Below are positions 2 to 37,233 of a stretch of 58,414 nt of DNA, piece after piece; position 1 is the first letter of the stretch, and every line of letters starts with the position of its first letter. The stretch is from a virus, in the IMG/VR virus record IMGVR_UViG_3300013094_000053, positions 1 through 58,414 of that record; one strand, 5' to 3'. Position numbers and translations under genes: made by a program. Under the pieces are notes generated by a model. The model was not told the origin of the DNA and made no database searches. It was given only the letters and a program-made list of their open reading frames with translations.

Positions 2-1252
2 TCTCCTTCAACAACTAGATATACTGTTCCTCTTTCTACAACAGGAAACTCTTTAATATTTACAACTTCAGGTGCTACAACTATTACTCTTCCGACCTCT
101 GGAACAATGATTACTTCATCATCTCCAACTATTACAACTCCAACTATTGATGTTATAAATGCTGCATCAGCAACAGGAACTACTGCTACATTATTCACAA
201 ATATATCTACAGGTTCTATTAATATTGGCGGATCTGCTTTAACTACAGGTACAATAAATATTGGTGTGGCGGGAACAGGCATAAACCCTATTGTAATTGG
301 AAAATCTACCTCAACCATCACTCTTGGAGCACTCCCTACAGCTGGATTTGTTAAAACCTCTGCAACTGGATTACTTTCAGTAGATACAAATACATATTTA
401 ACTACAACTGCAGCGGGAACAACATATTCTCCAATTGCAGGATCAGCCTCTATAACAACAGTCGGAACCGTAACTGCAGGATCAATTCCAGCAGCCAACC
501 TATCGGGTACAACATTAGCATCTGGAATTACTAGCTCATCTTTGACTTCTGTAGGAACTTTGAGTACTGTTAGCATGACTGGTGGTACGACAGGTTCATC
601 TGCTTTAACAATAAGCACAAATAACACATACGGAGGTGCAGGATATGCAGGATTCTTGACAGCGACAAATACAACTATCGGAGCTACAAACGCAAATAAA
701 TTTTTTAGAATAAACAGCACTGGTGGATTTGAAATAATAAATAGTGCCTACACTACAGTATTGTTTACTTTAACAGATGCAGGATTAGTGTCATCTTATG
801 GAGGATTTAGTGGAAGTGGAGCTTCTCTTACATCTCTAACAGCTGCAAATATAGCAGCAGGAACACTAGGATCAACAGTTCTGCCAGCAGCAGGAACAGT
901 TACAACTGCAGGACAAATTGGTTATATGGGGTTGCCACAAAATCTAAATCCAGGTGCTTATACAATTACAGCAGCAGATAATGGAAAACATTTGTATTAC
1001 ACTACAACTGGACAGACTGTTACAATTCCAGCTGCAGCTACTTTAGCATTACCTATTGGATTTACCTTTGTTGTAATAAATGCAGCAGCAGTTACAACAT
1101 CTATTGCTATTACAACAGATACAATGTATTTAGCTGGAACAGGAGCAACAGGAACAAGAACTTTGGCTGCATATGGTATGGCTACAGTAGTTAAGGTAGC
1201 AGGACCTACATCTGCTGGTGTCTGGATGATCAGCGGAAACGGTTTAACATAA
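2..1252 (+). CDS. Tail-fibre protein, 5' end outside window
   Basis: The reading frame is open from base 2 through an internal ATG at 107, so the gene starts before the window; about 417 codons are visible. The protein is Gly/Ser/Thr-rich and carries short beta-type repeats typical of marine and freshwater phage fibres (SLTSVGTL-like and ANLSGTTL-like units at about residues 145-190 of the visible part). A C-terminal domain of about 110 residues (after GYMGLPQN) resembles a terminal domain common on phage and prophage tail or spike proteins. It ends one base before the ATG of the next gene, so the two are probably co-translated. Role: a virion appendage that likely contacts the host surface. 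The family call is from low-complexity composition and position. Confidence 0.7.
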   Translation, partial: SPSTTRYTVPLSTTGNSLIFTTSGATTITLPTSGTMITSSSPTITTPTIDVINAASATGTTATLFTNISTGSINIGGSALTTGTINIGVAGTGINPIVIGKSTSTITLGALPTAGFVKTSATGLLSVDTNTYLTTTAAGTTYSPIAGSASITTVGTVTAGSIPAANLSGTTLASGITSSSLTSVGTLSTVSMTGGTTGSSALTISTNNTYGGAGYAGFLTATNTTIGATNANKFFRINSTGGFEIINSAYTTVLFTLTDAGLVSSYGGFSGSGASLTSLTAANIAAGTLGSTVLPAAGTVTTAGQIGYMGLPQNLNPGAYTITAADNGKHLYYTTTGQTVTIPAAATLALPIGFTFVVINAAAVTTSIAITTDTMYLAGTGATGTRTLAAYGMATVVKVAGPTSAGVWMISGNGLT

Positions 1253-1253
1253 T

Positions 1254-1955
1254 ATGTCTGGTATTACATCTAATTTGGCAGGTAATACATTAGGTGTACC
1301 ATCAGCACCAGCTACTGCTACTGCAACAGTAAACAGTACAACTCAAGTTACTATTACTTATGGCGTTATAAATAATAATGGTTCTACCCTCTTGCCCTTA
1401 GTTGGGTCGGGAACAGATACTGGAGATATAACAGATTCAACAGGAACTGCCGTAAATTTAACATATTCAGGAACATTATCCACTGCTGGTGGATCAATAC
1501 CAGTAACTGGTTCTTTTGTAATTGGAAATACTTATACTTTTAATATTAGAGCAAGAAATGCTGCAGGAGTAGGTCCATATAAAACTACTACTGGAGTTAT
1601 ACCAAACCCAACTCCACCTCCTGTATTGCCACCTCCTGTATTGCCACCTCCTGTATTGCCACCTCCTGTATTGCCACCACCAGTGGTTCCTCCAGTAGTT
1701 CCACCTGTGGTTCCACCTGTGGTTCCACCAGTATTACCACCACCAGTCGCTCCGCCTCCAAAATTGCCACCAAGCATCCCAGTTACTCCACCTCCACCTG
1801 TGCATCCACCAGTGGCACCACCACCAGTGGCACCACCACCAAAATTGCCACCAAGAGTCCCAGTTACTCCACCTACTGTACCAGCACTTCCTACAGTACC
1901 AGCAGTACCAACTGCTATACCTCAGCAGAAATCTCCAGATTGGTGGAAAGAATAG
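1254..1955 (+). CDS. Tail protein: FN3 domain plus polyproline tail ending in WWKE
   Basis: Product of 233 residues. Residues about 12-115 form a fibronectin type III-like domain (VPSAPATATA start, YTFNIRARNAAGVGPY near the end). From about residue 117 the chain is almost entirely proline with valine, leucine or lysine (PPPVLPPPV, PPPKLPP), then PTVPALPTVPAVPTAIPQQK and a terminal DWWKE. The same C-terminal module closes the large tail protein at 34342-37233. It follows the fibre gene after one base and is followed by a strong hairpin, so it ends that operon. Inference: an exposed spacer or anchoring arm on the tail. Four oxygenase-fold genes, two of them prolyl-4-hydroxylase-like, start 82 bases downstream, making this a candidate substrate. 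Confidence 0.7.
   Translation: MSGITSNLAGNTLGVPSAPATATATVNSTTQVTITYGVINNNGSTLLPLVGSGTDTGDITDSTGTAVNLTYSGTLSTAGGSIPVTGSFVIGNTYTFNIRARNAAGVGPYKTTTGVIPNPTPPPVLPPPVLPPPVLPPPVLPPPVVPPVVPPVVPPVVPPVLPPPVAPPPKLPPSIPVTPPPPVHPPVAPPPVAPPPKLPPRVPVTPPTVPALPTVPAVPTAIPQQKSPDWWKE
1614..1673 (+). repeat. 15-bp tandem repeat x4 (polyproline coding)
   Basis: Four identical copies of CCACCTCCTGTATTG, each coding PPPVL, followed by degenerate PPVVP units to about 1735. The array is in frame, so gain or loss of units changes arm length by five residues without breaking the gene. Confidence 0.9.
1713..1930 (+). repeat. Polyproline/WWKE module, copy 1 of a dispersed repeat
   Basis: Bases 1713-1773 are identical to 37066-37126 (61 bp) and bases 1859-1930 to 37131-37202 (72 bp). 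The copies lie about 35 kb apart at the 3' ends of two different tail genes. The extra segment in this copy (about 1794-1858) is a partial internal duplication of the same unit. Near-perfect DNA identity in a proline-coding region with free third positions points to recent duplication or continuing gene conversion. Confidence 0.85.
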
Positions 1956-1983
1956 TACTAAGAGTGCCTGCACTCTTAGTACT
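1954..1983 (+). terminator. Perfect 13-bp hairpin after tail operon
   Basis: AGTACTAAGAGTG pairs perfectly with CACTCTTAGTACT around a CCTG loop, starting inside the stop codon of the gene before. No clear U-tract follows on the + strand, so it may be a weak terminator or a 3' mRNA stabiliser rather than a classical Rho-independent terminator. Confidence 0.6.
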
Positions 1984-2005
1984 ACTAGATTAAATAATAA
2001 AAAAC

Positions 2006-2014
2006 TGATATAAT
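2006..2014 (+). promoter_or_regulatory. Extended -10 promoter for oxygenase operon
   Basis: TGATATAAT fits the TGnTATAAT extended -10 class that recurs before transcription units in this window. It sits just after the hairpin and 24 bases before the ATG at 2038; an AAAGGGG ribosome-binding site lies between. No good -35 is seen. Confidence 0.6.
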
Positions 2015-2037
2015 TGAAGAAAAGGGGTAATATTTAA

Positions 2038-2796
2038 ATGCCAACAAAAGCAGATGACAGTCCAAATATAAAATGGCACCTTCCAGCTGTAAAAGAGCCA
2101 AAGAAGGTAGACAATATGTTTTCTGATGATATTTTTAAAAGAATAAAAGACACAGTAACCAGTATCCCATGGGGACCAGGCGGGGAATATTTTTATCATA
2201 CATCCCTAGGTAGATGGGAAGCTAACATAGAATTTGATCCAGACATTGAAGAGATTATGCTGCAAAGAGCAAGAGAAATCTATCAAGATGATACTCTTGT
2301 AAAATCATTTCATTATACATCAAGATACCAAAAACAAAATGGCAATATTCCACATCTATGGAAGCATATGGATCAACATGCATGCCAACATTCAATTGAT
2401 ATGTGTATTGAAAAGAATAATGTTGACTGGGGCATTGAAGTTGATGGTACTCTTTTTTCAGAAGCAGAAAATTCAGCAATTTGTTTTTATGGGCAGCAGC
2501 AAGTTCACTCTAGACCAGAATATCCACAGAATACAACAGATGATGATTATTTAACATTGTTGTTTTTACATTTTGTAAAGCCAGACCATTGGTACAATCT
2601 CGCTATGGAAAGGGGCGGACTAGAATTGGTAGCAGAGACATTCAGACAATATGGAGCGGACGCAGATGTTAGATACTTTGAGGCAACGGGAACATACGCT
2701 CAGCCACAAGTTCCTGCGGGACAACAAAGATGTGAATGTCATAGTTATGCAGAAGTACCAGATGTAGTTCAATCTATAATACAGGGGAACAAGTAA
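2038..2796 (+). CDS. 2OG-Fe(II) oxygenase-fold protein (first of four)
   Basis: Product of 252 residues. A likely iron triad is visible: H110-x-D112 (KHMDQHACQHS) and distal H157, with R159 as possible 2-oxoglutarate contact (QVHSRPEY). The next gene has the same layout (HLD, then QVHWRDEF, then HFVEPDHWW against HFVKPDHWY here), so the two are divergent paralogues. Such enzymes couple 2-oxoglutarate decarboxylation to hydroxylation of proteins, nucleobases or small molecules; the substrate is not shown. A C-terminal extension of about 55 residues with a CEC pair is missing from the paralogue. The gene has its own promoter and a good ribosome-binding site. Cupin-like assignment without catalysis remains possible. 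Confidence 0.65.
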   Translation: MPTKADDSPNIKWHLPAVKEPKKVDNMFSDDIFKRIKDTVTSIPWGPGGEYFYHTSLGRWEANIEFDPDIEEIMLQRAREIYQDDTLVKSFHYTSRYQKQNGNIPHLWKHMDQHACQHSIDMCIEKNNVDWGIEVDGTLFSEAENSAICFYGQQQVHSRPEYPQNTTDDDYLTLLFLHFVKPDHWYNLAMERGGLELVAETFRQYGADADVRYFEATGTYAQPQVPAGQQRCECHSYAEVPDVVQSIIQGNK

Positions 2797-3414
2797 ATGT
2801 ACAATAGAGATTCATCTGAAATAGATAAAGAATTTGGGTTTGAAAGAAAGTATAAAGACGTAGAGCCAATCAAGATAAATGATTTGCTTCCACCAGACAA
2901 ATATCAATATTTACTAAATCATCTAAAAGAAAAAGTTGAAAATAAACAATACAACTATGAAGATGATATGTATAGAAAAGTTGCAAATTCATCAGTTCTA
3001 GATGAAATAACTGAGTATTTATTGCCAGTAGCACGAAAGGTATTTAATAGCGAGACACTTGTTCCAAGCTATACACTATGGTCTGAATATGATAACTCTA
3101 GGTCAAATTTATTGCACCATCTTGATTCAAATGCTTGTACATACACAATAGATATGTGTGTCTATCAAGATAATGAATGGCCATTATGGGTAGAAAACAA
3201 AGAGTACCACCTAGAACCTAATACCGCCCTAGCTTATTATGGAGAAGATCAGGTACACTGGAGAGATGAGTTCGGTAAAGATGGGGTGGTTGCTATGATA
3301 TTTTTCCACTTTGTAGAACCAGATCATTGGTGGTTTAATTATACTGAAGAGTGGTATAAAAATGAACATGCTAAAAGATGCTGGAACTACCAGAAAGCCC
3401 TGGGACTTTTTTAA
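2797..3414 (+). CDS. 2OG-Fe(II) oxygenase-fold protein (second)
   Basis: Product of 205 residues, starting directly after the stop of its paralogue with AGGGGAAC as ribosome-binding site. Putative iron ligands are H108-x-D110 (LLHHLDSNACTYTIDM) and H154 with R156 nearby (GEDQVHWRDEF), then a conserved FFHFVEPDHWW segment. It shares the ACxxxIDMC and HFVxPDHW blocks with the upstream protein. Adjacency and resemblance indicate tandem duplication, perhaps with different targets. Family assignment rests on motif spacing, not a database search. Confidence 0.65.
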   Translation: MYNRDSSEIDKEFGFERKYKDVEPIKINDLLPPDKYQYLLNHLKEKVENKQYNYEDDMYRKVANSSVLDEITEYLLPVARKVFNSETLVPSYTLWSEYDNSRSNLLHHLDSNACTYTIDMCVYQDNEWPLWVENKEYHLEPNTALAYYGEDQVHWRDEFGKDGVVAMIFFHFVEPDHWWFNYTEEWYKNEHAKRCWNYQKALGLF

Positions 3415-3431
3415 TATAGTAATTTAAAATT

Positions 3432-3440
3432 TGATATACT
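3432..3440 (+). promoter_or_regulatory. Extended -10 promoter upstream of third oxygenase gene
   Basis: TGATATACT ends 22 bases before the ATG at 3462, within the 47-base gap after the second oxygenase-fold gene. It suggests that the prolyl-hydroxylase-like pair can be transcribed separately. Confidence 0.5.
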
Positions 3441-3461
3441 AATTGTAAAGATAGGATTTAT

Positions 3462-4073
3462 ATGAATAGCAAAAGAGAAATAGCTCCAGGAATTATAGTT
3501 TATAATTTTGGCTCTATTGTTTCAAATTTAACAGTTGCTGAGATAGAAGAGGCAGTAGGAGAATTCCTTGCCCCAGCAGAAGTTGTAAATGTAGATAACG
3601 CCTTGGCGACGGAATTAATGAAACAATATAGGAGTTGTTATGACTATCTATTGCAGGATTATCTTCTTGATGAGCCAGATAGCCCAAAGAAGAACTTGCT
3701 TAAAAAGATTAAGTTGGTTGGGGACGAATCCCTTGAAGATTTTAGAAATCATTATGCTATAGAACCAGTTACTGGAAGTGGCTGGATCGTATTGAAGTAC
3801 GGGTACATGGACAAGTTTGACTGGCACACAGATACTGGAATGAGATATCCAAGAGCAGTTTCAATTACTGTTTATTTTAATGATGACTATGAAGGCGGAG
3901 AAATAGAATACAAACATTTTGGAATTTCTTATAAGCCAAAGGCTGGAGACGTTATTGTATTTTGTAGTGACTTTCCATATCTACATAGAGTTGTACCTGT
4001 TACAAAGGGTACTCGTTATGCAGCCGTAAATTGGTTCAGATATGCGACTAGGCCAGTAGAGTATAATGTTTAA
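3462..4073 (+). CDS. Prolyl-4-hydroxylase-like 2OG-Fe(II) dioxygenase
   Basis: Product of 203 residues with the clearest oxygenase signature of the group: H122-T-D124 (DWHTDTG), YFNDDYEGGEIEY, KPKAGDVIVF, distal H175 and R185 (YLHRVVPVTKGTRYAAVNWF). The H-x-D...H triad plus an arginine ten residues after the second histidine is the pattern of the P4H/PKHD superfamily, which hydroxylates peptidyl proline or other side chains. It overlaps the next gene by 8 bases. A phage protein substrate, such as the proline-rich tail proteins, is an inference from gene order. Confidence 0.85.
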   Translation: MNSKREIAPGIIVYNFGSIVSNLTVAEIEEAVGEFLAPAEVVNVDNALATELMKQYRSCYDYLLQDYLLDEPDSPKKNLLKKIKLVGDESLEDFRNHYAIEPVTGSGWIVLKYGYMDKFDWHTDTGMRYPRAVSITVYFNDDYEGGEIEYKHFGISYKPKAGDVIVFCSDFPYLHRVVPVTKGTRYAAVNWFRYATRPVEYNV

Positions 4074-4620
4074 TCCAGTTGTTGTAGAGGATATAATCAG
4101 CAAAGAAGAGAATGATCTTCTATTAAACTTTGCAAGAAGTACTGATCGCTGGGGTTCTGGCGGTGATGATTTTTGGGAGAGCCGTGTTGTTCACTTTGGA
4201 TCAGATCCACTTGACATGCCAGAGAAAGCCTTGCTTTCAGAAATAAGAAAAAGAATTCAAAAAGTAATTATTGATCATTATAATCTAGATCATATCTATT
4301 CAGACGGGATACATATGGTTAGATGGTTTGATGGAATGGAGCAACCTCCACATTGCGACAATATGGAGAATGATGACATTCATTTTGAAAATTATAAGCA
4401 TAGATTGTATGGCTCTATTCTATATTTAAATGATGATTTTGATGGTGGAGAAACATACTATCCAAAAAATGATTTTTATATTAAGCCAAAAGCTGGCAAA
4501 GTTGCAATCCATCCAGGCGATGCCGAGCATTGGCATGGGGTAACTAAAATTTCTGGCGGGACTAGATATACCTTAGCATCGTTCTGGACAGCAGAGGATA
4601 GGCATGCTAACGAGTGGTAA
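4066..4620 (+). CDS. Prolyl-4-hydroxylase-like 2OG-Fe(II) dioxygenase (fourth)
   Basis: Product of 184 residues. Iron and cosubstrate residues: H97-C-D99 (PPHCDNME), H157 (EHWHGVTKISGGTRY) and R167, with the typical LNDDFDGGETYY and KPKAGKVAIHPGDA strands. It overlaps the previous gene by 8 bases and the next by 17, suggesting coupled translation. It shares the DDFxGGExxY and KPKAG blocks with the gene before it, so these two form a second related pair in the block. Substrate unknown. Confidence 0.85.
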   Translation: MFNPVVVEDIISKEENDLLLNFARSTDRWGSGGDDFWESRVVHFGSDPLDMPEKALLSEIRKRIQKVIIDHYNLDHIYSDGIHMVRWFDGMEQPPHCDNMENDDIHFENYKHRLYGSILYLNDDFDGGETYYPKNDFYIKPKAGKVAIHPGDAEHWHGVTKISGGTRYTLASFWTAEDRHANEW

Positions 4621-5389
4621 TTATATTAATGAAGGCGATAATGTAATACCAGATGATAGAATTGTTGTTGTTCCACACGCACTAGATGGGGACGGAGCAT
4701 ATAAAGAAACAATCTGTGATTTAAGGGGAAACCCAAAGAGGGACTGGTTTAACGCACACTTTTATTACTGCTTGCCATTAAATATAGGCAATCAGTATGG
4801 ATTTGCAATCAGATCTATGTATGACATAACTGCTATCTGGCACGGTGGTCCAAATTATGAATCTCTAGAGTTTTCTGTGGATGGCCCACAAAATGGAAAT
4901 GTTCAATCCGTAGTATCTTCTTTTGGCTCTGGCATTATAACTATTCAAAATGGTTATACTCTAAGAACTCCTCCAGGAATTAATTTAATGACTATGCAAG
5001 TGCCAAATTATTTTATTCCAAATGTGATGGCTATGACAGGTGTTGTTGAAAGTGATAACTTAAGAAGAGACTTTACATTTAATCTTAAAATCACTGAGGT
5101 TGACAAAGAAATCCATATTAAAAAGGGAGATCTACTTGCAGCCTTCATGCCTATCCCAAGACATTTTATAGATAAGTTTAATATTGAATTGGCTAGTGAT
5201 ATGTTTAGTGAAGAAACTTTGATAAAAGAACATTCAGATAGATGCGAGTTTGATAAGCAAAGAAACGGAACTGATAAGGATAAGCCACATCAGTCTGGAA
5301 GAAAGTATTTTAATGGAGAGCATGCTCATGGGGATAAATACCCAGACCATCAAAAGCGGTTGGACTTCACATCTTCCCAAAGTGAATAA
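4604..5389 (+). CDS. Conserved phage protein of unknown function (DUF6065-like)
   Basis: Product of 261 residues, translated from an ATG inside the end of the fourth oxygenase gene. The core (HALDGDGAYKETICDLRGNP, YYCLPLNIGNQYGF, WHGG, TLRTPPGINLMTMQVPN, NLRRDFTFNLKIT) recalls, from memory, proteins of marine phages and bacteria grouped as DUF6065, often found near 2OG oxygenases. A beta-rich fold is likely. The last 60 residues are His/Asp/Lys-rich. Its 3' end overlaps the convergent sulfotransferase gene by 40 bases. No catalytic function can be assigned. Confidence 0.6.
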   Translation: MLTSGNYINEGDNVIPDDRIVVVPHALDGDGAYKETICDLRGNPKRDWFNAHFYYCLPLNIGNQYGFAIRSMYDITAIWHGGPNYESLEFSVDGPQNGNVQSVVSSFGSGIITIQNGYTLRTPPGINLMTMQVPNYFIPNVMAMTGVVESDNLRRDFTFNLKITEVDKEIHIKKGDLLAAFMPIPRHFIDKFNIELASDMFSEETLIKEHSDRCEFDKQRNGTDKDKPHQSGRKYFNGEHAHGDKYPDHQKRLDFTSSQSE

Positions 5390-6165
5390 TCTATTTGATT
5401 AAACTCTTCTATTCTTTTTAGATTTTGTTGACTGAGGTTACTAAAGAATTCTTTGGTAGCCTCATTTACATTATGCTTTTCTATATTTGGATTGATTACA
5501 TTTAAATCAAGATAATCATTTATAAATTCTATAATTTTATTCATATCATTATTAATTGTTTCTGTACGAGCAACTACAGCCATTTTTTCAAGCATAGATT
5601 CTGCTTGTTGTAATGTCACTTCTGTATTGTCTACGCCCCAACCTATTTTGTATACTTTTGCATGGTCTATTCTTGGACTTAATTCTTCAAGATCTCCACG
5701 ATAGATTGGGTAATTATTTTTAATAACATTTTGATCAAGTTTATTAACAAGAAACTTTGCTTGGAAGTTTGATTTAATATGCATATCTTCTTCATTATTA
5801 ATCCATATATCAAAAAACTTTAATCGGTCATCCATATCCTCTTTTTTGTATTTGTCAAAATACTTTTCATACTCAAGAAACCACCAAAAATGACTAACGA
5901 TTCTTCTGGCGGGATTTCTGATTACAGTTATCCCCAGAGTATTGGGGTTTATATAGTAAGGGTCAGCTGCATAGTGACCATTTATAAAAGATGCACGAGA
6001 TATCTCATCCTCATCTAGCAAGTTAATTATATGATTTCTATCTTGATGGTATATCAAGCCTTTTTTCTGTATCTGATCTTTCAAGCCACCATGATTTAAG
6101 CTTGTAAAGGTTAAGGCCCCAGCAGTTTTTGGTATGTGATGGAAATATAATGATTTTTCATTCAT
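5350..6165 (-). CDS. Sulfotransferase family protein
   Basis: Product of 271 residues and the only minus-strand gene in the window. The PAPS-binding 5'-phosphosulfate loop is seen at residues 9-16 (HHIPKTAG) and the 3'-phosphate-binding strand/helix at 81-93 (VIRNPARRIVSHF), as in Sulfotransfer_2 enzymes that sulfate carbohydrates. A promoter on the minus strand places the transcript start at the ATG, so the mRNA is probably leaderless. It is convergent with and overlaps the gene before it, and is divergent from the SGNH gene. Its own promoter and opposite orientation suggest a separately acquired module. An APS kinase-like gene at 8544 could supply PAPS. Confidence 0.8.
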   Translation of the reverse strand: MNEKSLYFHHIPKTAGALTFTSLNHGGLKDQIQKKGLIYHQDRNHIINLLDEDEISRASFINGHYAADPYYINPNTLGITVIRNPARRIVSHFWWFLEYEKYFDKYKKEDMDDRLKFFDIWINNEEDMHIKSNFQAKFLVNKLDQNVIKNNYPIYRGDLEELSPRIDHAKVYKIGWGVDNTEVTLQQAESMLEKMAVVARTETINNDMNKIIEFINDYLDLNVINPNIEKHNVNEATKEFFSNLSQQNLKRIEEFNQIDYSLWEDVKSNRF

Positions 6166-6211: not shown

Positions 6212-7012
6212 ATGACGGAAGAATATGAAAGTTTTTATAGATTCCCAGACGAAAAGATTGTAGTAACTGGGCCAGAATTTGAGTATAAGCTAAACAAAGA
6301 TGGATTCCGAACAAAAAACTTTGAAAGACTAAATAGTAATACATATAATTTTTTGTATTCAGGATGCTCTTACACATTTGGAGAAGGAATTCCAGAAGAG
6401 TATATGTGGACAAATTTATTATCAAATAAATTAAAGGGTTCATTTGCTAAAGAAGTCAAAGACTATAATATATCTAAACGTGGTCTCTCAATCCATGCAA
6501 TAGTAAGAGGAGTATTTTCCTTTTGTGAGAAATACGGGGACCCAGATCTAATTGTACTATTCCTGCCAAATATAGCAAGGTCTATACATTATAATTCAGA
6601 AACTAAAGAGTATGAAGATTTGTGTATTCCAGATACTCTAGACGGAGTAAAGCCACATAGAAAAGATATTCAATATGTTAAATCATTTTGCTACGAAGAC
6701 CACAAGCTTTTGGCATTTGATATGCTTAAATTCCTAGAAAAATATTGTGAACTGAAGGGTATAAAATTAATATACTCATCTTGGTTGTATAGAGAAAGAT
6801 ACTTATATGAGGAATCAGATTTAAAAAATCATTATCAGGTCAATATTGGTCCCCATATTCCAGTTGATAAGGAATTAGCAGAATTAGAAAATACTAATAA
6901 CGATCCCTACTGGTCTGTAGCAAGAGATGGATTGCATCCAGGAACTTTTGCAAATAAGAAGGTTTCTGAAGAATTCTTTAAAATAATAATAAAAGAGATT
7001 GGTGAAAAGTAA
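6212..7012 (+). CDS. SGNH/GDSL hydrolase-like protein
   Basis: Product of 266 residues. The nucleophile block is GCSYTFGEG (residues 51-59, Ser53) and the catalytic Asp/His pair is D239-x-x-H242 (RDGLHPGTF), the block I and block V pattern of SGNH esterases/acyltransferases. A possible block III is weak. Such enzymes remove or add acyl groups on sugars and lipids. No signal peptide is visible, so it acts in the cytoplasm or on virions during assembly. The stop overlaps the ATG of the carbamoyltransferase gene (TAATG). Confidence 0.75.
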   Translation: MTEEYESFYRFPDEKIVVTGPEFEYKLNKDGFRTKNFERLNSNTYNFLYSGCSYTFGEGIPEEYMWTNLLSNKLKGSFAKEVKDYNISKRGLSIHAIVRGVFSFCEKYGDPDLIVLFLPNIARSIHYNSETKEYEDLCIPDTLDGVKPHRKDIQYVKSFCYEDHKLLAFDMLKFLEKYCELKGIKLIYSSWLYRERYLYEESDLKNHYQVNIGPHIPVDKELAELENTNNDPYWSVARDGLHPGTFANKKVSEEFFKIIIKEIGEK

Positions 7013-8445
7013 TGGTAATAATGGGAATCAGCGAGGGATTTCACGATGCATCAGTTTCTATCATAAGTGATGGAGAAATACTTTTTGCTGCACATGCGGA
7101 AAGATATAGTAAGTTAAAAAATGATCCGTCTCTAAACTATGATATATTAAAAGAGGCTGTAGAGTATGGGTATCCAGATCAAATTGCATACTATGAAAAA
7201 CCTTACTTGAAAAAAACCAGGTTGCTATTGCGTGGCGGGATAAAAGACACTGACCTGTATTATAAGAGAACAGCCTTATCAGAATTACCAGTAAAGCACA
7301 TAAGTCATCATAGATCACATGCAGCTGCTGGATACTATACTAGTAAATTTACTGATGCTACTATTGTGGTTTTAGATGCAATAGGAGAATTCAATACCTC
7401 AACCATATGGCAGGGTAAAGGAAATGATATAAAATTAATTTATAGGCAAAACTACCCAGTTTCATTTGGCCTGTTCTATTCAGCGTTTACAGATTTGCTA
7501 GGCTTAAAACCAAATCAAGAAGAATATATAATGATGGGTATGGCTGCGTATGGCAACCCAAACAAATACTTCAACAAGGTAAATGAATATTTTCCACACT
7601 ACTCTTCTCAAAAATATAATTTTCACAAAGGCATATTTGACTGGGGAAATATAATTGATGAGCAGGATAAATTTGATATAGCAGCAGCAGTGCAAATGGT
7701 TTATGAAAATAGATTAATGGAAATAATGCGTAAGGCTCAAATGACTGTAGGCTCTAAGAATCTTGTATTTATGGGTGGATGTGCGTTGAACTGTTCTGCC
7801 AATACAAAGTTGTGGGATATCTATAATGATATTTGGATTATGCCAAACCCAGGGGATGCGGGGAGTTCCCTAGGTGCTGCACTAGCATTATATGGAAAAC
7901 ATGTAAACTGGATAACTCCATATTTAGGCACAAATATTGGAAATGAATATCCAGTTCAAGATATAGTTGATAAATTGTTGGTTGATAAAATTGCTCCAGT
8001 CGCATCTGGAAGATCTGAATTTGGTCCGAGATCATTGGGGAATAGAAGTATTCTTGCTGACCCAAGAGATCCTAATATCAAAGACGTGGTAAATAAGATA
8101 AAACAAAGAGAATTGTTCAGGCCCTTCGCTCCTGTTGTTATGGAAGAGCATGCATCAGAATGGTTTGGTATGAGTTATGCCAGCCCATACATGCAATTTG
8201 CTCCATTATGCTTGAAGCCAGAATTAATCCCATCGGTAGTACATGCTGACGGGACATCTAGAGTTCAAACTGTAAATAAGGAACAGCACCCTGGCTTATA
8301 TCAAGTACTAGAGTCATGGTACAAGATAACTGGTGTGCCAGTATTGCTTAATACAAGTCTTAATATTAAAGGTCAACCCATACTTAATAATAAACGTGAT
8401 ATAATAAATTGGGAAAACGCTTATAAGGAAAAGATATTGAAATGA
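7012..8445 (+). CDS. Carbamoyltransferase, NodU/CmcH/TobZ family
   Basis: Product of 477 residues. Diagnostic blocks are the N-terminal GISEGFHDASVSI, the histidine cluster HISHHRSHAAAG (97-107) of the Kae1-like domain, GGCALNC, NPGDAGSSLGAAL and the C-terminal GRSEFGPRSLGNRS, FRPFAPVV and LNTSLNIKGQPI. The family transfers carbamoyl from carbamoyl phosphate through a carbamoyl-adenylate to hydroxyl groups of sugars or antibiotics. The extreme C-terminus is slightly shorter than usual after the GQPI block. It forms an operon with the SGNH gene (1-base overlap) and a 30-residue ORF (ATGA overlap). Acceptor unknown: virion glycan or host polymer are options. Confidence 0.9.
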   Translation: MVIMGISEGFHDASVSIISDGEILFAAHAERYSKLKNDPSLNYDILKEAVEYGYPDQIAYYEKPYLKKTRLLLRGGIKDTDLYYKRTALSELPVKHISHHRSHAAAGYYTSKFTDATIVVLDAIGEFNTSTIWQGKGNDIKLIYRQNYPVSFGLFYSAFTDLLGLKPNQEEYIMMGMAAYGNPNKYFNKVNEYFPHYSSQKYNFHKGIFDWGNIIDEQDKFDIAAAVQMVYENRLMEIMRKAQMTVGSKNLVFMGGCALNCSANTKLWDIYNDIWIMPNPGDAGSSLGAALALYGKHVNWITPYLGTNIGNEYPVQDIVDKLLVDKIAPVASGRSEFGPRSLGNRSILADPRDPNIKDVVNKIKQRELFRPFAPVVMEEHASEWFGMSYASPYMQFAPLCLKPELIPSVVHADGTSRVQTVNKEQHPGLYQVLESWYKITGVPVLLNTSLNIKGQPILNNKRDIINWENAYKEKILK

Positions 8446-8543: not shown

Positions 8544-9302
8544 ATGATTATTCAGATTATAGGATTGCCAGGAAGTGGCAAGACCACACTTGCTAAAGCT
8601 CTTGTAGATAGAATTAATGCAGTACATTTAAATGCAGACTATGTACGCTCAACTATAAATTCAGATCTTGGGTTTACAATTGAAGACCGAATTGAACATG
8701 CACGTCGCATGGGAGAAATGGCAAGAATATTGTCTGGGCAGGGGCTTGATGTCGTTGTTGATTTTATTTGCCCAACGCCAGAGACAAGAGAATCCTTTGG
8801 CAAACCAGATATTCTTATTTGGATGAATACGATTGAAGAAAGTCGTTTTGAAGATACAAATAAAATGTTTGTGAAGCCAGAAAACTTTGACAGCATGTTT
8901 GATTCGCATGACATGGATGCATATCAAAAATCAACTTATATAATTCAAAAATTTAAATTACACGACTGGTCAGCACCAACCACCCTGATGCTTGGACGCT
9001 ATCAACCATGGCACGAAGGTCATCACGCACTATATAAAGAGGCAGGGAAAAGAACAGATCAAGTAATGCTAGGTGTAAGAAATACTTACAATACCAGTGT
9101 AAAAGATCCATTGACATTTGATCAGGTAAAGGGCTATATTTCACAGGATGACTTTATGGATGGAGCAATGGTAATTAGAATGCCAAATATTACCAATATT
9201 GTTTATGGACGAGACGTAGGCTACAAGATTGAACAAGTTTCATTGGGTCAGGATATAGAGGCTATTTCCGCCACACAAAAAAGAAAAGAGTTGGGAATAT
9301 GA
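8544..9302 (+). CDS. APS kinase-like / nucleotidyltransferase fusion
   Basis: Product of 252 residues with two domains. Residues 1-135 are adenylylsulfate-kinase-like: Walker A GLPGSGKTT (7-15), LNADYVR, the diagnostic NSDLGFTIEDR (39-49), then VVVDFICPTPETR. Residues 148-252 are a HxGH-type nucleotidyltransferase: GRYQPWHEGH (151-160), YGRDVGY and ISATQKRKE (241-249). APS kinase makes PAPS, the donor of the sulfotransferase encoded 2.4 kb upstream. Whether the second domain makes APS (sulfurylase role) or another nucleotide is open, since its motif is closer to NMN adenylyl- and cytidylyl-transferases. TATACT 12 bases upstream of the ATG and AAAGGA suggest a separate start. Confidence 0.8.
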   Translation: MIIQIIGLPGSGKTTLAKALVDRINAVHLNADYVRSTINSDLGFTIEDRIEHARRMGEMARILSGQGLDVVVDFICPTPETRESFGKPDILIWMNTIEESRFEDTNKMFVKPENFDSMFDSHDMDAYQKSTYIIQKFKLHDWSAPTTLMLGRYQPWHEGHHALYKEAGKRTDQVMLGVRNTYNTSVKDPLTFDQVKGYISQDDFMDGAMVIRMPNITNIVYGRDVGYKIEQVSLGQDIEAISATQKRKELGI

Positions 9303-24510: not shown

Positions 24511-24975
24511 ATGACAGTATATGCTATACAGGCGGGAATACAAGTTTCTACTGATAATACTACATGGTATCCATTAACAGATCATAACCGTGATCCTATT
24601 CAAGTTGAAAATAGCCTAATTGAAGAATCTTCCCGTATGGCAAATGGTAAAATGCGTAAATATGTAATTGCCTCAAAGAGAACATTTACCGTAACTTGGA
24701 AAACATTGACATCTAGCACAAATGATACAGTTGATGGAAATTATTCATCAGCCTGGCTAAATGCTTTTTATTCACAAAATGTATTTAGTCCAATCTATAT
24801 TAAGTTTGTACATTCAGCATCATCTACGCCTTCGGTTGGAGATACCTCATTTTTGAGTTCTAAATTCACATCAGAAACAACTCAAGTTTTCATTACTAAG
24901 TTTGATATAACTACATCAAAGAGAAATGAATTCAGAGACCTAGTTGATATGACCATAGAATTTACGGAGGTATAA
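24511..24975 (+). CDS. Minor tail protein, tube- or distal-tail-like
   Basis: Product of 154 residues, starting right after the tape-measure stop. It is beta-rich (YAIQAGIQVSTDNTTWYPLT, RKYVIASKRTFTVTWKTL, EFRDLVDMTIEFTEV) and resembles small tube-like or distal-tail proteins that start the tail tip. The stop and next ATG overlap. Function assigned from position and fold pattern only. Confidence 0.55.
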   Translation: MTVYAIQAGIQVSTDNTTWYPLTDHNRDPIQVENSLIEESSRMANGKMRKYVIASKRTFTVTWKTLTSSTNDTVDGNYSSAWLNAFYSQNVFSPIYIKFVHSASSTPSVGDTSFLSSKFTSETTQVFITKFDITTSKRNEFRDLVDMTIEFTEV

Positions 24976-27900
24976 TGCTACTAAATACTGATAATACGTA
25001 TAGAGACATTTTTCTAAATGCTAAATCCGTAAATATGCTACCAGTGATTTCTGCTGAGTGGAATCAAAACCTCTTTAATCCGCCATATCTTATGGTAACT
25101 GGAGATGGAACAAAGTTTACTCCAACTACAACAAGTACAATATCTTCAGTTACAGGTGCTGCTGCACATCCAGTCTTTACTACAAATTCATTTGCTACAA
25201 CTACTGGAACATCAACGGCATCAGGATCTGTTTTATATACATGCACCACAAATGGCTCAAGTCCAACTTACAAGATAGTTACCTATATGATGACCAGTCA
25301 GGCATTACCAGTGCTTGTATCATCTTATGCAAAAGACAGCACAAATGTTTACACTGGGTCAACTCAAACAGAAATTAATAACTACGGTTGGACTAAAATA
25401 GAGACCTATATTGGCGGGGCTCCAACATCTGGAAACCTTACAACATTTTCATACAATATAGTGGCGACAACTTTAGACTCTTCAAGCGGAACTCCAACTA
25501 TATACTTTACGGTTCCAGAAGTTTACGTTTGTTCTTATTTTGATTATCAATATCATACCCTGTGGGACCCATACAGCGTTGTAACTAATTTTAGACCAGG
25601 AGAATCATATGTAACCACTGGAGACTATAAATATTCTCTTCAAGCTGATTTTAGAAAGATTAGTTCTCCATTATTGAACGGTTATGCTGGGACTACATAT
25701 TCTCCAGTAAGCTCTATTGTTCAGAACCCAAACCATATTTTAGCAACACAGTATGTACCACTTATTAAAAATGTGGTTCCAACAGATATCAATCCATATA
25801 AATATTTTGTTTCTGATACATCAAACACATCACTTACTGCTTTATACCAGACAGCAGTAAATACAAATAAGCTTGTATTTAAATTTAATACAATGGTTAC
25901 AATCCCAACCGTTCAAATTAAAGTTAATGGAACTGCAATAACTGTTGATGGAACATCAAGCATCACTGTACCATCAAACGGAGTATTGGTAATCTACTGG
26001 AATGGTTCTCAGTGGACTCAGAAGAAGTGGGGAGATCCAACAGGAACACCAGTAACTACAATGCCATACCTAGACCAAACAACTGGAGCATTGTCACTAT
26101 ATACATCTTTAACTAAGTTAACAGTAACGCAGCTTTCAAAAACTATAAATTCTGCTTTTACTACATCAAATACAACATTCGCCTCAGATGCAAATAGAAT
26201 GCATTTAATTGAAATGTCTCCAAGACTAGAAATTGATTTAAGTAATTTTGTAGAGGATGTAACGATAACCAAAGCCCTTGACAGCAAGAGCACAGTTATC
26301 CCGCTATCAACAATTAATCCTGATGACCTATTGACTACTTTGTCTGGAATTCCAGCATTTAATGGCTCTTCCGTTATACCAGTATTATCAAATCAAAGTA
26401 ATAAATCAACAAGTATCCTGGCAAATATGTTGAGAAAAAATATTAAAATTTATTCAAGTTTTAATTTAATTTCATATACAACAACAACTACAACGACAGT
26501 TAACACTTATATTCCAGGCGGGATTTATTATGTTGACACCTGGGACGAAACAGATATTAAAGAAATTAAAGTTCAATGCTATGATATAACTAGATATCTA
26601 CAAACAGTTCCTGTTGCGGATTATGTAGCAAACCTAAAGGGTGTACTAGATATTGTCAGCAATATACTTGATCTTACTGGATTTACAGATTATGATTATG
26701 ATTCATTGTATAAAGTTTGCAACGATCCATTGATTCCAATGGAGTTATCTTACTTCTATTGCAACTCAAAAGACACCACTCTCGTAGCTGCGTTAAATTC
26801 AATATTCTTGGCGTACCAAATTGGTTGCTTTATTGATGAATACGGAGTCATGAGATTCTTAAGCTTATCTAATATCATTAATAATGCTAACTTAGTCAAT
26901 CTTGGTATAAACCAATCTGTTATGTCTATAGATGATAACAACATTGTGATGGAGGGATATGGTGTTACAAACTCATCTAAAGTTGGTATGATATCAATAA
27001 GATATCAAAGTCCAAAGATCCTACAATCCCTAGCCCTTCAAAATGCCACAGATCCAGCTATTAAAAATACAGCTTCATTTATTTATACCACATCTAATGA
27101 CGTAGTATGGCAACAAGGAAATACTGATTCTGTAGGATTTAACTATCTTGCTTCAAGCATGGCGGAAACAGATTCAAGCTTTCAGCTATACCAAAGAGAT
27201 CTATTAAATCAATTCCACACATACTCTCTAAATAATAATGGATATTCCGTGATAGAAGATGAGATAGTTTCATTCGAGTATAAGCAATATCTTATTTCAA
27301 ATTCAAGTGGATATGTTTATGCAAATGTTAAGAATGATATTGAATTGCAAGCAGAGATAAATAAATTTATTAAAAAATATCAGTCTTCGCTGACTACATC
27401 TGATGGAACAACTAAGGGTGACTACAATGTTACTATTGTACCTCAAAATAAAATCACAAATGTTCAAAGAGGTCTTTTTGGAACTACGCCAGTTGCACAC
27501 AACATCATAACTTCTCTAGCATCAAAGAACCTTTCTTCTGGAGGATCTGGAACAGCAAGTATCTCTACAATAGGTGCGGGTAGCCCAAATCAAATTGAAG
27601 TTGTTGGAATGATACCAAGCGGTTCATCTAAAGTAACGCTGTATCCTACATCTGCTAGGGATATTGGATACAAAACATATTCTATTAAATTTGGTTTGAA
27701 TACTCAAGATAGAAGTGCAGCTGGTCTGTTCTTTAATGCATCTGGTGGCAATGGATCTAGCGGGTATTTTGTTGAATTGGTTCAAGTAAATACTTATACT
27801 CCAGAAACAACTACTATGAGTAATAACTATAATTATTATATGATTATTTATAACTCATCTGGCGTGTTATATTGGGCAAACGTGACTGGTGAAGTCAATG

Positions 27901-34340: not shown

Positions 34341-34341
34341 A

Positions 34342-37233
34342 ATGGGTTTGTTCATCAATAAAGGTACCAACACAGTATCAAATTGGGTTCCAGTAAAAAA
34401 AGTATTTGTTAATAAAGGAACTAACACTGTTTCAAATTGGGTTCAAGTTAAAAAAATATTTATTAATAAGGGAACCAATTTAATTTCAGCATGGACTCAG
34501 TTTTGGCCAAAACTTGGACCACATACAGATTTGCCACCAGCTATAACATCAGACTCAGCTGGTACAACTTTTCCAACTTATGTATATGTGGGAACAATGC
34601 CAACTCCATCAGCAGTAGCAAATGGCACGACAAATAAATATACAGCTCATACGCTGTACCTACAACCTGGAATATGGAACCCAAACGGATATAGTCCAAA
34701 CGGAATATCATATTCAGTAGATGGTTATACTACTTTGGCGGGAACTTCAGGATCAATTAATTTTACTTCTGGAACATTAACTTTAACATCATCATCAGCA
34801 ATACCTGGAGATTACACTGCTGCAACTACATCAATGGGACTGATAGGGTCATATGATGGAAGATACCCAGTATTAACAGTTACTGTAAGTACTACATCTA
34901 GCGGAGTTAATGGTATTGATACAAGCGATAGTTATAATAATGGAAGAATTGCCGTTATTAAAAATACCCCAACATTAATAACTTCTACCTTGTCTTCCTC
35001 CACTGGATCTCCAGCAAATGCTGGGTCAATATTGTCTTATAGTTCAACTTGGCAGTCTGCAGATGGATACATTCCAGACCCCACAAGAACATTCATGGCT
35101 TGGTATGGATCAAATGTTGGTACTTATACTACATTGGCACAACTTCAAGCATCTGCAACAGCATTGGGCGGGTCTTTGGCAAGTGTCAGCGGTGCCTATA
35201 ATCATACAATTACTACAACAGAAGCAAACTCATACACATATATCTATGGAGTGGAGTCTGCTTATAGTGGATATACAGATTATTTTGGATACACTAGCGG
35301 AATTAGTAATGTTAAAGTAATGTCAGTTACTAAGCCACTTCAACCACCTAATACGCCAACATTCAATTCAAAATCTTCTACTGTAAATGGTGTCACTATA
35401 GTATTTAACCAATCTGTTGTTGATTCTACTCATGATGCACCGAGTGTGTATTATTGGGCAGTTTCTCCAAGTGGACCATGGACATCAATACCTGCAACAT
35501 CTGCCAGTACCTATTCATTCACCTATAATACTTTGGCTAGTGCAACTCCAGCCACGTACACCTTTTATATATATGCAAGCAACTATGTGAGTGCATCAAG
35601 TGGAGGATCATCTGGACAATTGACTACAACAGGTACTCCTACAGCTGTACTTCCCCCAAGTTCTTTTACAATATCTTCTGTAACAAAAGGCTTGCCATTA
35701 CAATTGGCCCCATATACAAGAAACTTGCAAATTACATGGAATAGAGCAACGCAATCACAAGGAGCAGCATTTGGCTATGGATATCAAGTGGAGGGAAGCT
35801 CTGATAACGTTTCGTGGGCTATGCTACAGACTTACGCTGCCAGCCCGTATATAGCTGATACTGGAGCAGGAACTTATACAACAACCTATACTGCACTTCA
35901 GTATACTTTTTACAGGGTATCAGTATTTGCATCTGTGGACGGAACAACTCCCCCTTCTGCTGGGTCTACTGCTGCTTCTAATAATCCATTTCAAGTAACA
36001 GGAACTGCACCAAGTGTGCCTTCAATTACAAGTGTTTCACCATCATACTTTACGGCAGCCCTATCTTGGCTTGCAGGTGGATCCAGCGGAAGCAATTCTA
36101 TATCTGGTATACAATATTCAACTGACGGTGGTTCAACTTGGTCTGCAACTACAGTTTCTAATCCAGCAACAATTTCAAATTTAAGCCCAAATACACTTTA
36201 TGCATTTTACATAAGAGAAGTAAATGGTGATCAATTAGTTTCTGGAATATCTTCTCCATATAATGCGTACACTCTACCTTTAGCAGCACCATCAACCCAG
36301 CTAGTAGCTGGATCAAGTAACGGATCTGGGCATGGACAATTAGTTGGCTCATATTCATTGCCATCAGGATACACATCTTATTATCCAAATGTGTCTTTAT
36401 ATTATGAAATTTGGAGAACTGGAACTCCAGCATCAGGTCACAGTGGTGTAAATGGATGGGGAAATCCAGGAACCTATGTACTATATTCAAGTGGTACTAT
36501 ACCAGCTGTAAGTTCTGGTGTTGCGGTTGAGTTGTATGTTCCATCTCCAAATGGATACTACTTTATGCTTGCAGAAACTTTATATAATGGTGTCTTGCAA
36601 GGTGCAACATATTCCAATAATGGAGCGGGAAACACTTCAACAGGTGTAGTTGCTGACTGGATTTATGGATCTGGAACAGCAATTGGATTGACTCTATCTC
36701 CATCAATTAATGCTGGAACTATTACAAGTTCAGGATTTAGTGGAACTGTTTCATGGTCAAACACTGATTTGACATCATATACAGTATCGCTAAGTACAAC
36801 TTTTGGTGCAATCAGTCCTACATCATTTACTGCAACTGCACAAACCTCAGCCAGCACACCATTTACAGTCTCTGGTGCTCCTTCAAGCACACTTGTGACT
36901 GTCACTGCATCTTCTGGCGGAGTCAGTGGTTCTGCAAGTGCAACAACATCAGGCTCAGTAACCCCACCACCTGTAACCCCACCACCTGTAACCCCACCAC
37001 CTGTAACCCCACCACCTGTTACGCCACCACCAAAATTGCCACCAAACCTCCCAGTTACACCGCCTCCACCTGTGGTTCCACCAGTATTACCACCACCAGT
37101 CGCTCCGCCTCCAAAATTGCCACCAAACATCCCAGTTACTCCACCTACTGTACCAGCACTTCCTACAGTACCAGCAGTACCAACTGCTATACCTCAGCAG
37201 AAGTCTACGGATTGGTGGAAGGAGCAAAATTGA
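34342..37233 (+). CDS. Tail fibre protein with FN3 domains and polyproline/WWKE tail
   Basis: Product of 963 residues, one base after the previous stop. Residues 4-57 are three 18-residue repeats (FINKGTNTVSNWVPVKKV type), a motif seen at the ends of many virion proteins. FN3-like domains fill about 330-440, 445-555 and 560-650. From about 874 comes a polyproline arm (TPPPVTPPPV, PPPKLPPNLP) and the terminal TAIPQQKSTDWWKEQN shared with the protein at 1254-1955. A hairpin follows. Likely a structural fibre whose arm length can change by repeat slippage; the arm is a potential target of the oxygenases encoded near 3.5 kb. Confidence 0.75.
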   Translation: MGLFINKGTNTVSNWVPVKKVFVNKGTNTVSNWVQVKKIFINKGTNLISAWTQFWPKLGPHTDLPPAITSDSAGTTFPTYVYVGTMPTPSAVANGTTNKYTAHTLYLQPGIWNPNGYSPNGISYSVDGYTTLAGTSGSINFTSGTLTLTSSSAIPGDYTAATTSMGLIGSYDGRYPVLTVTVSTTSSGVNGIDTSDSYNNGRIAVIKNTPTLITSTLSSSTGSPANAGSILSYSSTWQSADGYIPDPTRTFMAWYGSNVGTYTTLAQLQASATALGGSLASVSGAYNHTITTTEANSYTYIYGVESAYSGYTDYFGYTSGISNVKVMSVTKPLQPPNTPTFNSKSSTVNGVTIVFNQSVVDSTHDAPSVYYWAVSPSGPWTSIPATSASTYSFTYNTLASATPATYTFYIYASNYVSASSGGSSGQLTTTGTPTAVLPPSSFTISSVTKGLPLQLAPYTRNLQITWNRATQSQGAAFGYGYQVEGSSDNVSWAMLQTYAASPYIADTGAGTYTTTYTALQYTFYRVSVFASVDGTTPPSAGSTAASNNPFQVTGTAPSVPSITSVSPSYFTAALSWLAGGSSGSNSISGIQYSTDGGSTWSATTVSNPATISNLSPNTLYAFYIREVNGDQLVSGISSPYNAYTLPLAAPSTQLVAGSSNGSGHGQLVGSYSLPSGYTSYYPNVSLYYEIWRTGTPASGHSGVNGWGNPGTYVLYSSGTIPAVSSGVAVELYVPSPNGYYFMLAETLYNGVLQGATYSNNGAGNTSTGVVADWIYGSGTAIGLTLSPSINAGTITSSGFSGTVSWSNTDLTSYTVSLSTTFGAISPTSFTATAQTSASTPFTVSGAPSSTLVTVTASSGGVSGSASATTSGSVTPPPVTPPPVTPPPVTPPPVTPPPKLPPNLPVTPPPPVVPPVLPPPVAPPPKLPPNIPVTPPTVPALPTVPAVPTAIPQQKSTDWWKEQN
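34351..34512 (+). repeat. 54-bp (18-residue) in-frame repeat x3
   Basis: Three degenerate units at 34351-34404, 34405-34458 and 34459-34512 encode FINKGTNTVSNWVPVKKV and relatives. Protein similarity is higher than DNA similarity, so selection keeps the repeat. Confidence 0.85.
36964..37023 (+). repeat. 15-bp tandem repeat x4 (polyproline coding)
   Basis: Three exact copies and one variant of CCACCACCTGTAACC, coding PPPVT. The unit has the same length as the array at 1614-1673 but a different sequence, so each array expanded on its own. Confidence 0.85.
37066..37202 (+). repeat. Polyproline/WWKE module, copy 2 of dispersed repeat
   Basis: Identical to 1713-1773 over 37066-37126 and to 1859-1930 over 37131-37202. 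See copy 1. Confidence 0.85.

Follow-up and report, generated by a model that had tools for sequence, protein, structure and literature searches.

The virus record IMGVR_UViG_3300013094_000053, analysed at its full length of 58,414 bases (hereafter the window), encodes near its start a tail protein with a proline-rich C-terminal arm, and downstream of this gene lie four consecutive genes (2038-4620) for 2-oxoglutarate (2OG)/Fe(II) oxygenases and one for a DUF6065 protein. A second tail protein, encoded at 34342, has the same arm. We found that such oxygenases are recurrently paired with such arms in viral contigs, which suggests that these viruses chemically modify, and probably hydroxylate, their own tail arms. 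The features concerned are listed below; open reading frames (ORFs) of at least 80 amino acids (aa) were called mechanically, and the four oxygenases are named P3, P4, P5 and P6 in gene order.

1254..1955, plus strand: arm protein 1, with a minor-tail-like N-terminal domain (phrog_6977, minor tail protein, E 1.2e-4) and a C-terminal proline arm
1599..1925, plus strand: coding stretch of arm 1, with PPPVL, PPVV and PPPKLPP repeats (ends approximate)
1953..1984, plus strand: hairpin after the arm gene and ahead of the oxygenases, with 14 pairs and a loop of 4
2038..2796, plus strand: oxygenase 1 (P3), of a family outside Pfam, with HxD...HxR and a C-terminal CxCH motif
2797..3414, plus strand: oxygenase 2 (P4), of the family of P3, with a predicted 2OG oxygenase fold
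3462..4073, plus strand: oxygenase 3 (P5), PF13640 (E 1.8e-14), with H122, D124, H175 and R185
4066..4620, plus strand: oxygenase 4 (P6), PF13640 (E 1e-9)
4604..5389, plus strand: DUF6065 protein with a predicted dUTPase-like fold, a recurrent neighbour of the oxygenases
34342..37233, plus strand: arm protein 2, with the same proline arm and ending and a weak fn3 match (E 3.8e-4, below the cut-off)
36997..37223, plus strand: stretch of arm 2 matching the DNA of arm 1 (window 1725-1951), 227 bp at 87% DNA identity

The arm proteins and the hairpin

The two arms were first noted in a sequence-only reading of the window, which described two tail proteins sharing an arm of about 100 mostly proline residues. 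The sharing is borne out by the 227 bp match and by a common ending, PQQKSxDWWKE. The composition has to be corrected to about half proline: arm protein 1 (233 aa) has 56 prolines in a C-terminal stretch of 109 residues, and arm protein 2 (963 aa, without a PHROG match) has 40 in 89. Their densest 40 residues hold 24 and 23 prolines, respectively, and they are the two most proline-dense among the 1563 ORFs of 36 records, the next ORF of this phage reaching 8 prolines per 40 residues. The arm of arm protein 1 has no glycine, and so none of the Gly-X-Y triplets that define collagen. Arm 1 recurs with 100% identity on two contigs of other datasets, one of which has only part of it, and arm 2 does so on a third contig of another dataset.

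The hairpin that had been placed after the arm gene is confirmed (-19.9 kcal/mol, z -5.3) and was also seen as an inverted match. The promoter placed with it did not stand out from chance, as 20 promoter-like sites were found against 19.2 in shuffles, none of them on the plus strand from the hairpin to 2038.

Four consecutive oxygenases

The same reading had seen H-x-D...H patterns in all four genes, and each of them can now be assigned to the 2OG/Fe(II) superfamily. P5 and P6 match PF13640 and have HxD...H followed by R/K, and P6 has the same residues as P5 at the columns of H122, D124, H175 and R185. The arginine and the GGE and KPKAG strands ascribed to the third and fourth genes are found in both. 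By sequence, the best solved matches of P6 are a bacterial prolyl 4-hydroxylase and prolyl 3-hydroxylase 1, and those of P5 are PiuC and, second, the same prolyl 4-hydroxylase. P3 and P4 matched no Pfam family, and a sequence search of the PDB with their family yielded no credible hit (lowest E 0.0096, for chains that are unrelated), so that this family was placed by fold search alone. The model of P4, folded with 13 relatives, is confident, with a predicted local distance difference test (pLDDT) score of 89.6. Its PDB matches, in the 50 best rows listed, are 2OG oxygenases or share a related fold, with Z scores of 14.8 and 14.5 to protein prolyl hydroxylases and a tying 15.2 to SnoN. On this predicted fold P4 is a 2OG oxygenase; P3 is assigned as one through its alignment to P4, the member of the pair that was folded. 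The HxD...HxR pattern is invariant in the 14 aligned sequences of the P3/P4 family, both window genes included.

Conservation extends to the relatives retrieved by hidden Markov models (HMMs). Among 343 matches, 328 have the three iron-ligand columns filled; the ligands are kept in 324 of these and HxD...H plus R/K in 323, and therefore nearly all of these enzymes should, judging from their residues, be active.

Two further observations concern P3 and P4. Their best PHROG family carries the label 'ferrochelatase', and the proteins matched by PHROG 2954 and 3531, both so named, have the fold or a domain of 2OG oxygenases; the label is probably a misnomer. A CxC[HC]xY motif at the C-terminus of P3 and its relatives may be a metal site. 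For P3/P4-type genes, cellular genomes gave 30 pattern matches, none of which was confirmed as a relative.

Proline arms and oxygenases across viral contigs

Viral contigs were searched for arms by DNA pattern, ignoring oxygenases. The main scan used DNA coding for PPFFPPFFPP, the controls used DNA able to encode PTPTPTPTPT and GGFFGGFFGG, and a further scan used PPVxPPVxPP, the type of arm found in the window. The PPFF, PPV and PTPT scans each list 120 loci (the true totals are at least 120, and these are not random samples), with the motif inside a called ORF in 95, 56 and 99 of them, respectively. The loci were then searched for oxygenases with HMMs built from the phage's own lineage.

Oxygenases were found in 86 of the 120 PPFF loci listed (318 genes in 1078 kb, or 29.5 per 100 kb) and in 7 of the 120 PTPT loci (9 genes in 1146 kb, or 0.8 per 100 kb). 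The corresponding Fisher p of 5.6e-28 assumes independence and is inflated by shared descent. The GGFF control gave no oxygenase in 20 loci, only 2 of which had the motif in an ORF, and is too small to weigh. The association is directional: an oxygenase lies at most three genes downstream of the arm ORF in 62/83 PPFF loci, against 3/80 PTPT loci, and oxygenases fill 27-55% of the gene slots from +1 to +12 after the PPFF arm gene and 1/262 of the slots upstream of it. In 34 PPFF records the locus lacks an oxygenase; when these were searched whole, PF13640 was found in 20, including 13/13 of those of at least 40 kb; the same search of PTPT records gave 4/50. The share of PPFF loci with oxygenases increases with arm length, from 2/5 below 40 residues to 18/30 at 40-59 and 46/60 at 60 or more.

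This pattern is spread over many sequences and over several proteins. Clustering at 90% DNA identity divides the 120 PPFF loci into 111 groups, 80 of which have oxygenases. For the 91 arm proteins in which at least 60 residues precede the arm, 14 N-terminal classes without detectable mutual similarity can be distinguished, and because 8 of the 14 have an oxygenase in a locus the pairing is not limited to one scaffold. A locus may hold up to 11 divergent oxygenases: none of 843 pairs within one locus or record reaches 60% identity, and 547 have no blastp hit, so that the enzymes probably differ from one another in site or step. The PPFF pattern also matched 26 loci of cellular genomes; 7 had the arm in a called ORF, and 2 of these had oxygenases in the locus, both on contigs of metagenome-assembled genomes (MAGs). 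The MAG holding L581 and L590 also has PF13640.

Arms of the window type behave somewhat differently. PF13640-type oxygenases occur in 12/120 PPV loci listed and P3/P4-type genes in 10/120, but many PPV matches are not long arms. Three or more units lie inside an ORF in 34 loci. Oxygenases are present in 10 of these, with a P3/P4-type gene in 9 of the 10; such genes thus accompany 9/34 long PPV arms versus 2/77 long PPFF arms. The locus L350 repeats most of the window cassette, lacking P4 and with other genes interspersed: a PPVV arm is followed by P3 (56% identical), a radical SAM/SPASM protein, a GT61 glycosyltransferase, P5 (44%), P6 (49%) and DUF6065 (51%). In L357, L411 and L428 the PPVV arm is followed by P5, P4 and P3, and in L376, L377, L401 and L410 by a fused P3-P5 protein, which in L401 is cut at the contig end.

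The lineage of the phage

A scan with the capsid protein gave at least 598 matching relatives, and the 80 best among them were taken as loci. PF13640 was found at E<=0.01 in 15 of the 35 longer lineage records, with up to 9 matches per record. In the gene maps of the lineage, oxygenases sit in the gap that separates the last tail gene from the portal gene (the hotspot). Where both are seen, the last tail gene before the oxygenases is often proline-armed, with a repeat that varies by phage: the window has PPPV/PPVV, G009/G011 and G012 have PPFF, G016 has PPGFF, G029 has PPSG, and G028 has PTPT with TNPGVT. The pairing in G028 and G029 involves tail genes without a blastp match to those of the window, and in G006 the arm that is seen (PPTPPTPPVG) is on arm protein 2, with an oxygenase after it. 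Among the loci examined, none held all four genes without a proline arm, and equally no second four-gene phage was seen, identical contigs aside. No close DNA relative of window 10030-34340 was found among named phages.

In a tree of capsid and portal proteins from 18 records, the combined presence of arm and oxygenase is found in 7 and requires at least three changes, one of which (window versus G007) possibly affected only the arm. The tree omits G011, a near copy of G009, and G021, a near copy of G020. It also omits three records whose tail lies off the contig (G010, G013 and G030), two with arms but with the hotspot off the contig (G019 and G032), and G005 (the window strain) together with other, mostly short, records in which the hotspot is unseen. 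G006 was scored arm-positive from arm 2 alone. Records scored as having neither have a hotspot without oxygenase and no arm in the part seen; among them, two records (G023 and G031) are partial, two (G025 and G017) have one oxygenase each elsewhere, and another protein of G033 has a weak proline-rich stretch (12 of 40).

In G000, G011, G016 and G007 the arm at the hotspot and that of arm protein 2 are alike in repeat or ending, and they differ between phages. This fits a single enzyme set serving both arms.

Several proline arms precede a C-terminal stretch that by eye resembles a Hint or intein domain (for example ...LLAGSLVVHNK), as in L263, L219, L232 and L196. Stretches of this kind also follow the arm in G019 (24674-28051), G029 (26775-28616) and G007 (3222-4733 and 33552-35861), and L220 matches PF14890 (Intein_splicing) at E 2.2e-5, below the cut-off. 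Their likeness to such domains suggests that self-cleavage or splicing may take place behind the arm.

DUF6065 and other neighbouring genes

The gene after P6 matches DUF6065 (PF19541) with 137.9 bits, far above the cut-off of 26.6, and its predicted structure resembles dUTPase (Foldseek E 3.1e-5; Z 10.7 over 119 residues, 4.1 Å, 13% identity). DUF6065 occurs in 63/120 PPFF loci listed versus 1/120 PTPT loci, and the pattern-scan sets contain 98 such proteins of 200-290 aa. As a guess from the modelled fold, it might be a trimeric holder of trimeric arms.

The remaining genes around the block are the following:

107..1252, plus strand: fibre-like protein before arm protein 1, an ORF judged fibre-like from composition and place
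5350..6165, minus strand: sulfotransferase (PF03567)
7012..8445, plus strand: carbamoyltransferase (PF02543/PF16861)
8544..9302, plus strand: APS kinase-like (PF01583, E 1.4e-15) and nucleotidyltransferase-like (PF01467, E 6e-4, just below the cut-off) domains

The first of these has no Pfam or PHROG match at E<=1. An adenosine 5'-phosphosulfate (APS) kinase-like protein and a sulfotransferase within one phage raise the possibility of phage-encoded supply and use of 3'-phosphoadenosine 5'-phosphosulfate (PAPS), which the former, given its domain match, could provide to the latter. Elsewhere in the window, the product of 53398-54510 has, by eye, a signal-peptide-like start and a coiled-coil-like C-terminus, and no convincing family.

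Other proteins also lie within the oxygenase blocks. We scanned 73 of the 76 listed proteins between the arm and the last oxygenase, and these include 3 matches to sulfotransferase, 2 to TauD, 2 to Asp/Asn hydroxylase and one each to PhyH, 2OG-FeII_Oxy_5, carbamoyltransferase and radical SAM/SPASM. A glutathione peroxidase-family protein recurs within the blocks of PPFF loci, accounting for 12 of the 73.

A proposed function and its alternatives

We propose that the arm proteins, the oxygenases and the DUF6065 protein form one module in which the four enzymes hydroxylate both arms, most likely converting proline to hydroxyproline, and we give this reading a probability of about 0.7. It draws on the anatomy of the locus, the families or folds and catalytic residues of the enzymes, and the strong, directional association of arms and oxygenases across many viral contigs. 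The phage would make two tail proteins with one type of repetitive proline-rich C-terminal arm, and the oxygenases would hydroxylate residues of both within the infected cell, before or during tail assembly. We infer that proline is the modified residue because all arm types share it. Each enzyme would have its own site or step, and the arm would become stiffer, more resistant or differently adhesive. More tentatively, and with somewhat less than even odds, the module may represent a widespread tail-finishing system, in which like arms on two tail proteins are served by a matched set of 1 to 11 divergent oxygenases. Position-specific hydroxylation of proline, and perhaps of phenylalanine or tyrosine, would then give fibres resembling extensin or mussel adhesive, whose chemistry would set the grip on the host and whose arms and enzymes would be exchanged as matched sets. 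That a partner of dUTPase fold often accompanies the oxygenases in such a system is a similarly tentative part of this view.

Several observations weigh against the proposal that the enzymes act on the arms. The likeness of both arms within a phage would equally arise by gene conversion without any function. The near copies G020 and G021 have, at the same place, an oxygenase with DUF6065 yet lack a proline arm, the homologue of arm protein 2 that lies next to an oxygenase in G025 is arm-less, and G007 has a P3/P4-type gene with only a thinner, weaker FTPFG arm. No oxygenase was found in the locus for 24/34 long PPV arms, and of 20 PPV records without an oxygenase in the locus, searched whole, 2 had PF13640 elsewhere; the pairing is therefore looser for PPV than for PPFF arms. 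Even among PPFF records, 14/120 showed no oxygenase at all (contigs of 6.9-38.4 kb). The share of loci with oxygenases also rises with arm length in the PTPT control (0/54 and 2/21 for the shorter arms, 5/24 at 60 residues or more), and therefore some connection with these enzymes may extend to long proline arms of any type. The largest N-terminal class comprises 64/91 arm proteins, so that much of the count reflects shared descent and the p-values are inflated. The fold matches of P4 include small-molecule enzymes such as SnoN. Of the 317 named phage records that P5 matches, 306 are cyanophages by name, and one match of P4 lies among glycosyltransferases; none of four such regions read has a proline arm of the window's kind. 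Finally, the Chlorella virus PBCV-1 encodes a prolyl 4-hydroxylase, and according to an excerpt of PMC7019647 hydroxyproline was not found in its virions. The sequence-only reading is partly supported: its core, that the oxygenases act on the tail arms, emerges with strong indirect support from the PPFF and PTPT scans (86/120 versus 7/120), tempered by the long PPV arms that lack an oxygenase in the locus, and hydroxyproline as the product and a stiffer arm would be its further predictions.

The oxygenases might instead modify the arms on other or on several residues, such as phenylalanine, tyrosine, valine or lysine. PPFF-locus arms contain almost as much phenylalanine (34.2%) as proline (37.7%), the divergence of the oxygenases within a locus (0/843 pairs at 60% identity or more) fits several specificities, and the block genes include matches to Asp/Asn hydroxylases, TauD and PhyH. 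This explanation overlaps with hydroxylation of proline, and we consider it rather unlikely as the better description, since proline is the residue common to PPFF, PPVV, PPPV, PPTP, PPSG and PPNF arms and P6 is nearest by sequence to prolyl hydroxylases.

Hydroxylation could also be a first step, after which the sulfotransferase, the carbamoyltransferase or glycosyltransferases would decorate the arms, an extension that had been proposed for the window and that overlaps with our reading too. It is suggested by the sulfotransferase, carbamoyltransferase and APS kinase-like genes next to the block, by the two glycosyltransferases and the radical SAM/SPASM protein within or beside the cassette of L350, and by a GlcNAc-transferase (PF11397) after the arm genes of G016 (with one small ORF between) and G007. 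We searched for PF11397 and PF03567 in 50 of the 86 oxygenase-bearing PPFF loci and in 50 of the 120 PTPT loci. PF11397 was not enriched (3/50 PPFF versus 5/50 PTPT records), and in the lineage and PPV records it was found in 10/46, mostly those without a proline arm. The glycosyltransferase that acts on the hydroxyproline of Skp1 belongs to PF11397, which made the link look striking, but as the family is not enriched beside arms it was not used. The sulfotransferase was found in 3/50 arm records versus 0/50 controls, with one of the three above the curated cut-off, two below it and no control match anywhere, and was not retained as a general arm partner; that of the window is moreover on the opposite strand. 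Decoration by the sulfotransferase or carbamoyltransferase is thus not general, and we regard it as improbable.

That the oxygenases act elsewhere, on a host surface glycan, a small molecule or nucleotides, with the tail-to-portal gap a mere hotspot of cargo, would fit the other cargo of this gap in relatives, the arm-less pair of oxygenase and DUF6065 in G020/G021, the oxygenases of cyanophage S-SCSM2R among glycosyltransferases and an amidinotransferase, and the antibiotic-tailoring enzymes among the fold matches of P4, but it is doubtful because the association, found using neither oxygenases nor the hotspot, tracks the type of arm and spans several scaffolds without detectable similarity, PTPT loci seldom show oxygenases, and the combined state requires at least three changes in one lineage, if one of them (window versus G007) perhaps of the arm only.

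If hydroxylation of the arms by their neighbouring enzymes is true, a group of 'metabolic' phage genes would instead make virion parts, and phages would possess a hydroxyproline chemistry of their own. The arm-enzyme pairs would then provide small prolyl hydroxylases, each with a repetitive substrate that is defined. The pairing also makes the role of viral prolyl hydroxylases directly testable.

Comparison with known systems

Collagen and plant extensin are repetitive proline-rich rods hydroxylated by enzymes of the prolyl 4-hydroxylase type. The arm of the window differs from them in having neither a glycine repeat nor a secretory pathway. Among solved enzymes, the best sequence match of P6 (E 3.8e-7, residues 5-147 of 184) is a bacterial prolyl 4-hydroxylase (PDB 3itq, 5hv0), presumably from Bacillus anthracis, which is a cellular enzyme.

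T4-like cyanophages (ACG-2014f, S-SCSM1) carry oxygenases of the same superfamily, some of them beside tail fibre or collagen-repeat genes (in ACG-2014f, one oxygenase lies near a collagen-repeat gene), but unlike the window, the four regions read contain no long proline arm. In S-SCSM1 (MK867354), an annotated short tail fibre (213879-215144) has a long insert rich in Arg, Pro and Phe, with RQPR and APFNFR repeats, and is surrounded by seven annotated 2OG oxygenases, three of which are recognised by the lineage HMMs. Phages frequently encode 2OG oxygenases, and families like those of the window are common in cyanophages; cyanophage 2OG oxygenases are classed as auxiliary metabolic genes in an excerpt of PMC10436341.

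In open PMC text we found no paper describing the pairing of arms and oxygenases in phages. The closest statement comes from marine viral metagenomes, where P4HA was linked with collagen in viral tail fibres and its use called "cryptic"; the excerpt of PMC9301287 concerns annotation counts, and describes no proline arm, oxygenase block or gene pairing. PBCV-1 resembles the window in encoding a prolyl hydroxylase of its own, which in the excerpted text acts on proline-containing peptides and is listed among the virion proteins (PMC7019647). It differs in being a virus of a eukaryotic alga, whereas the phages described here have up to 11 divergent oxygenases beside a proline-arm gene.

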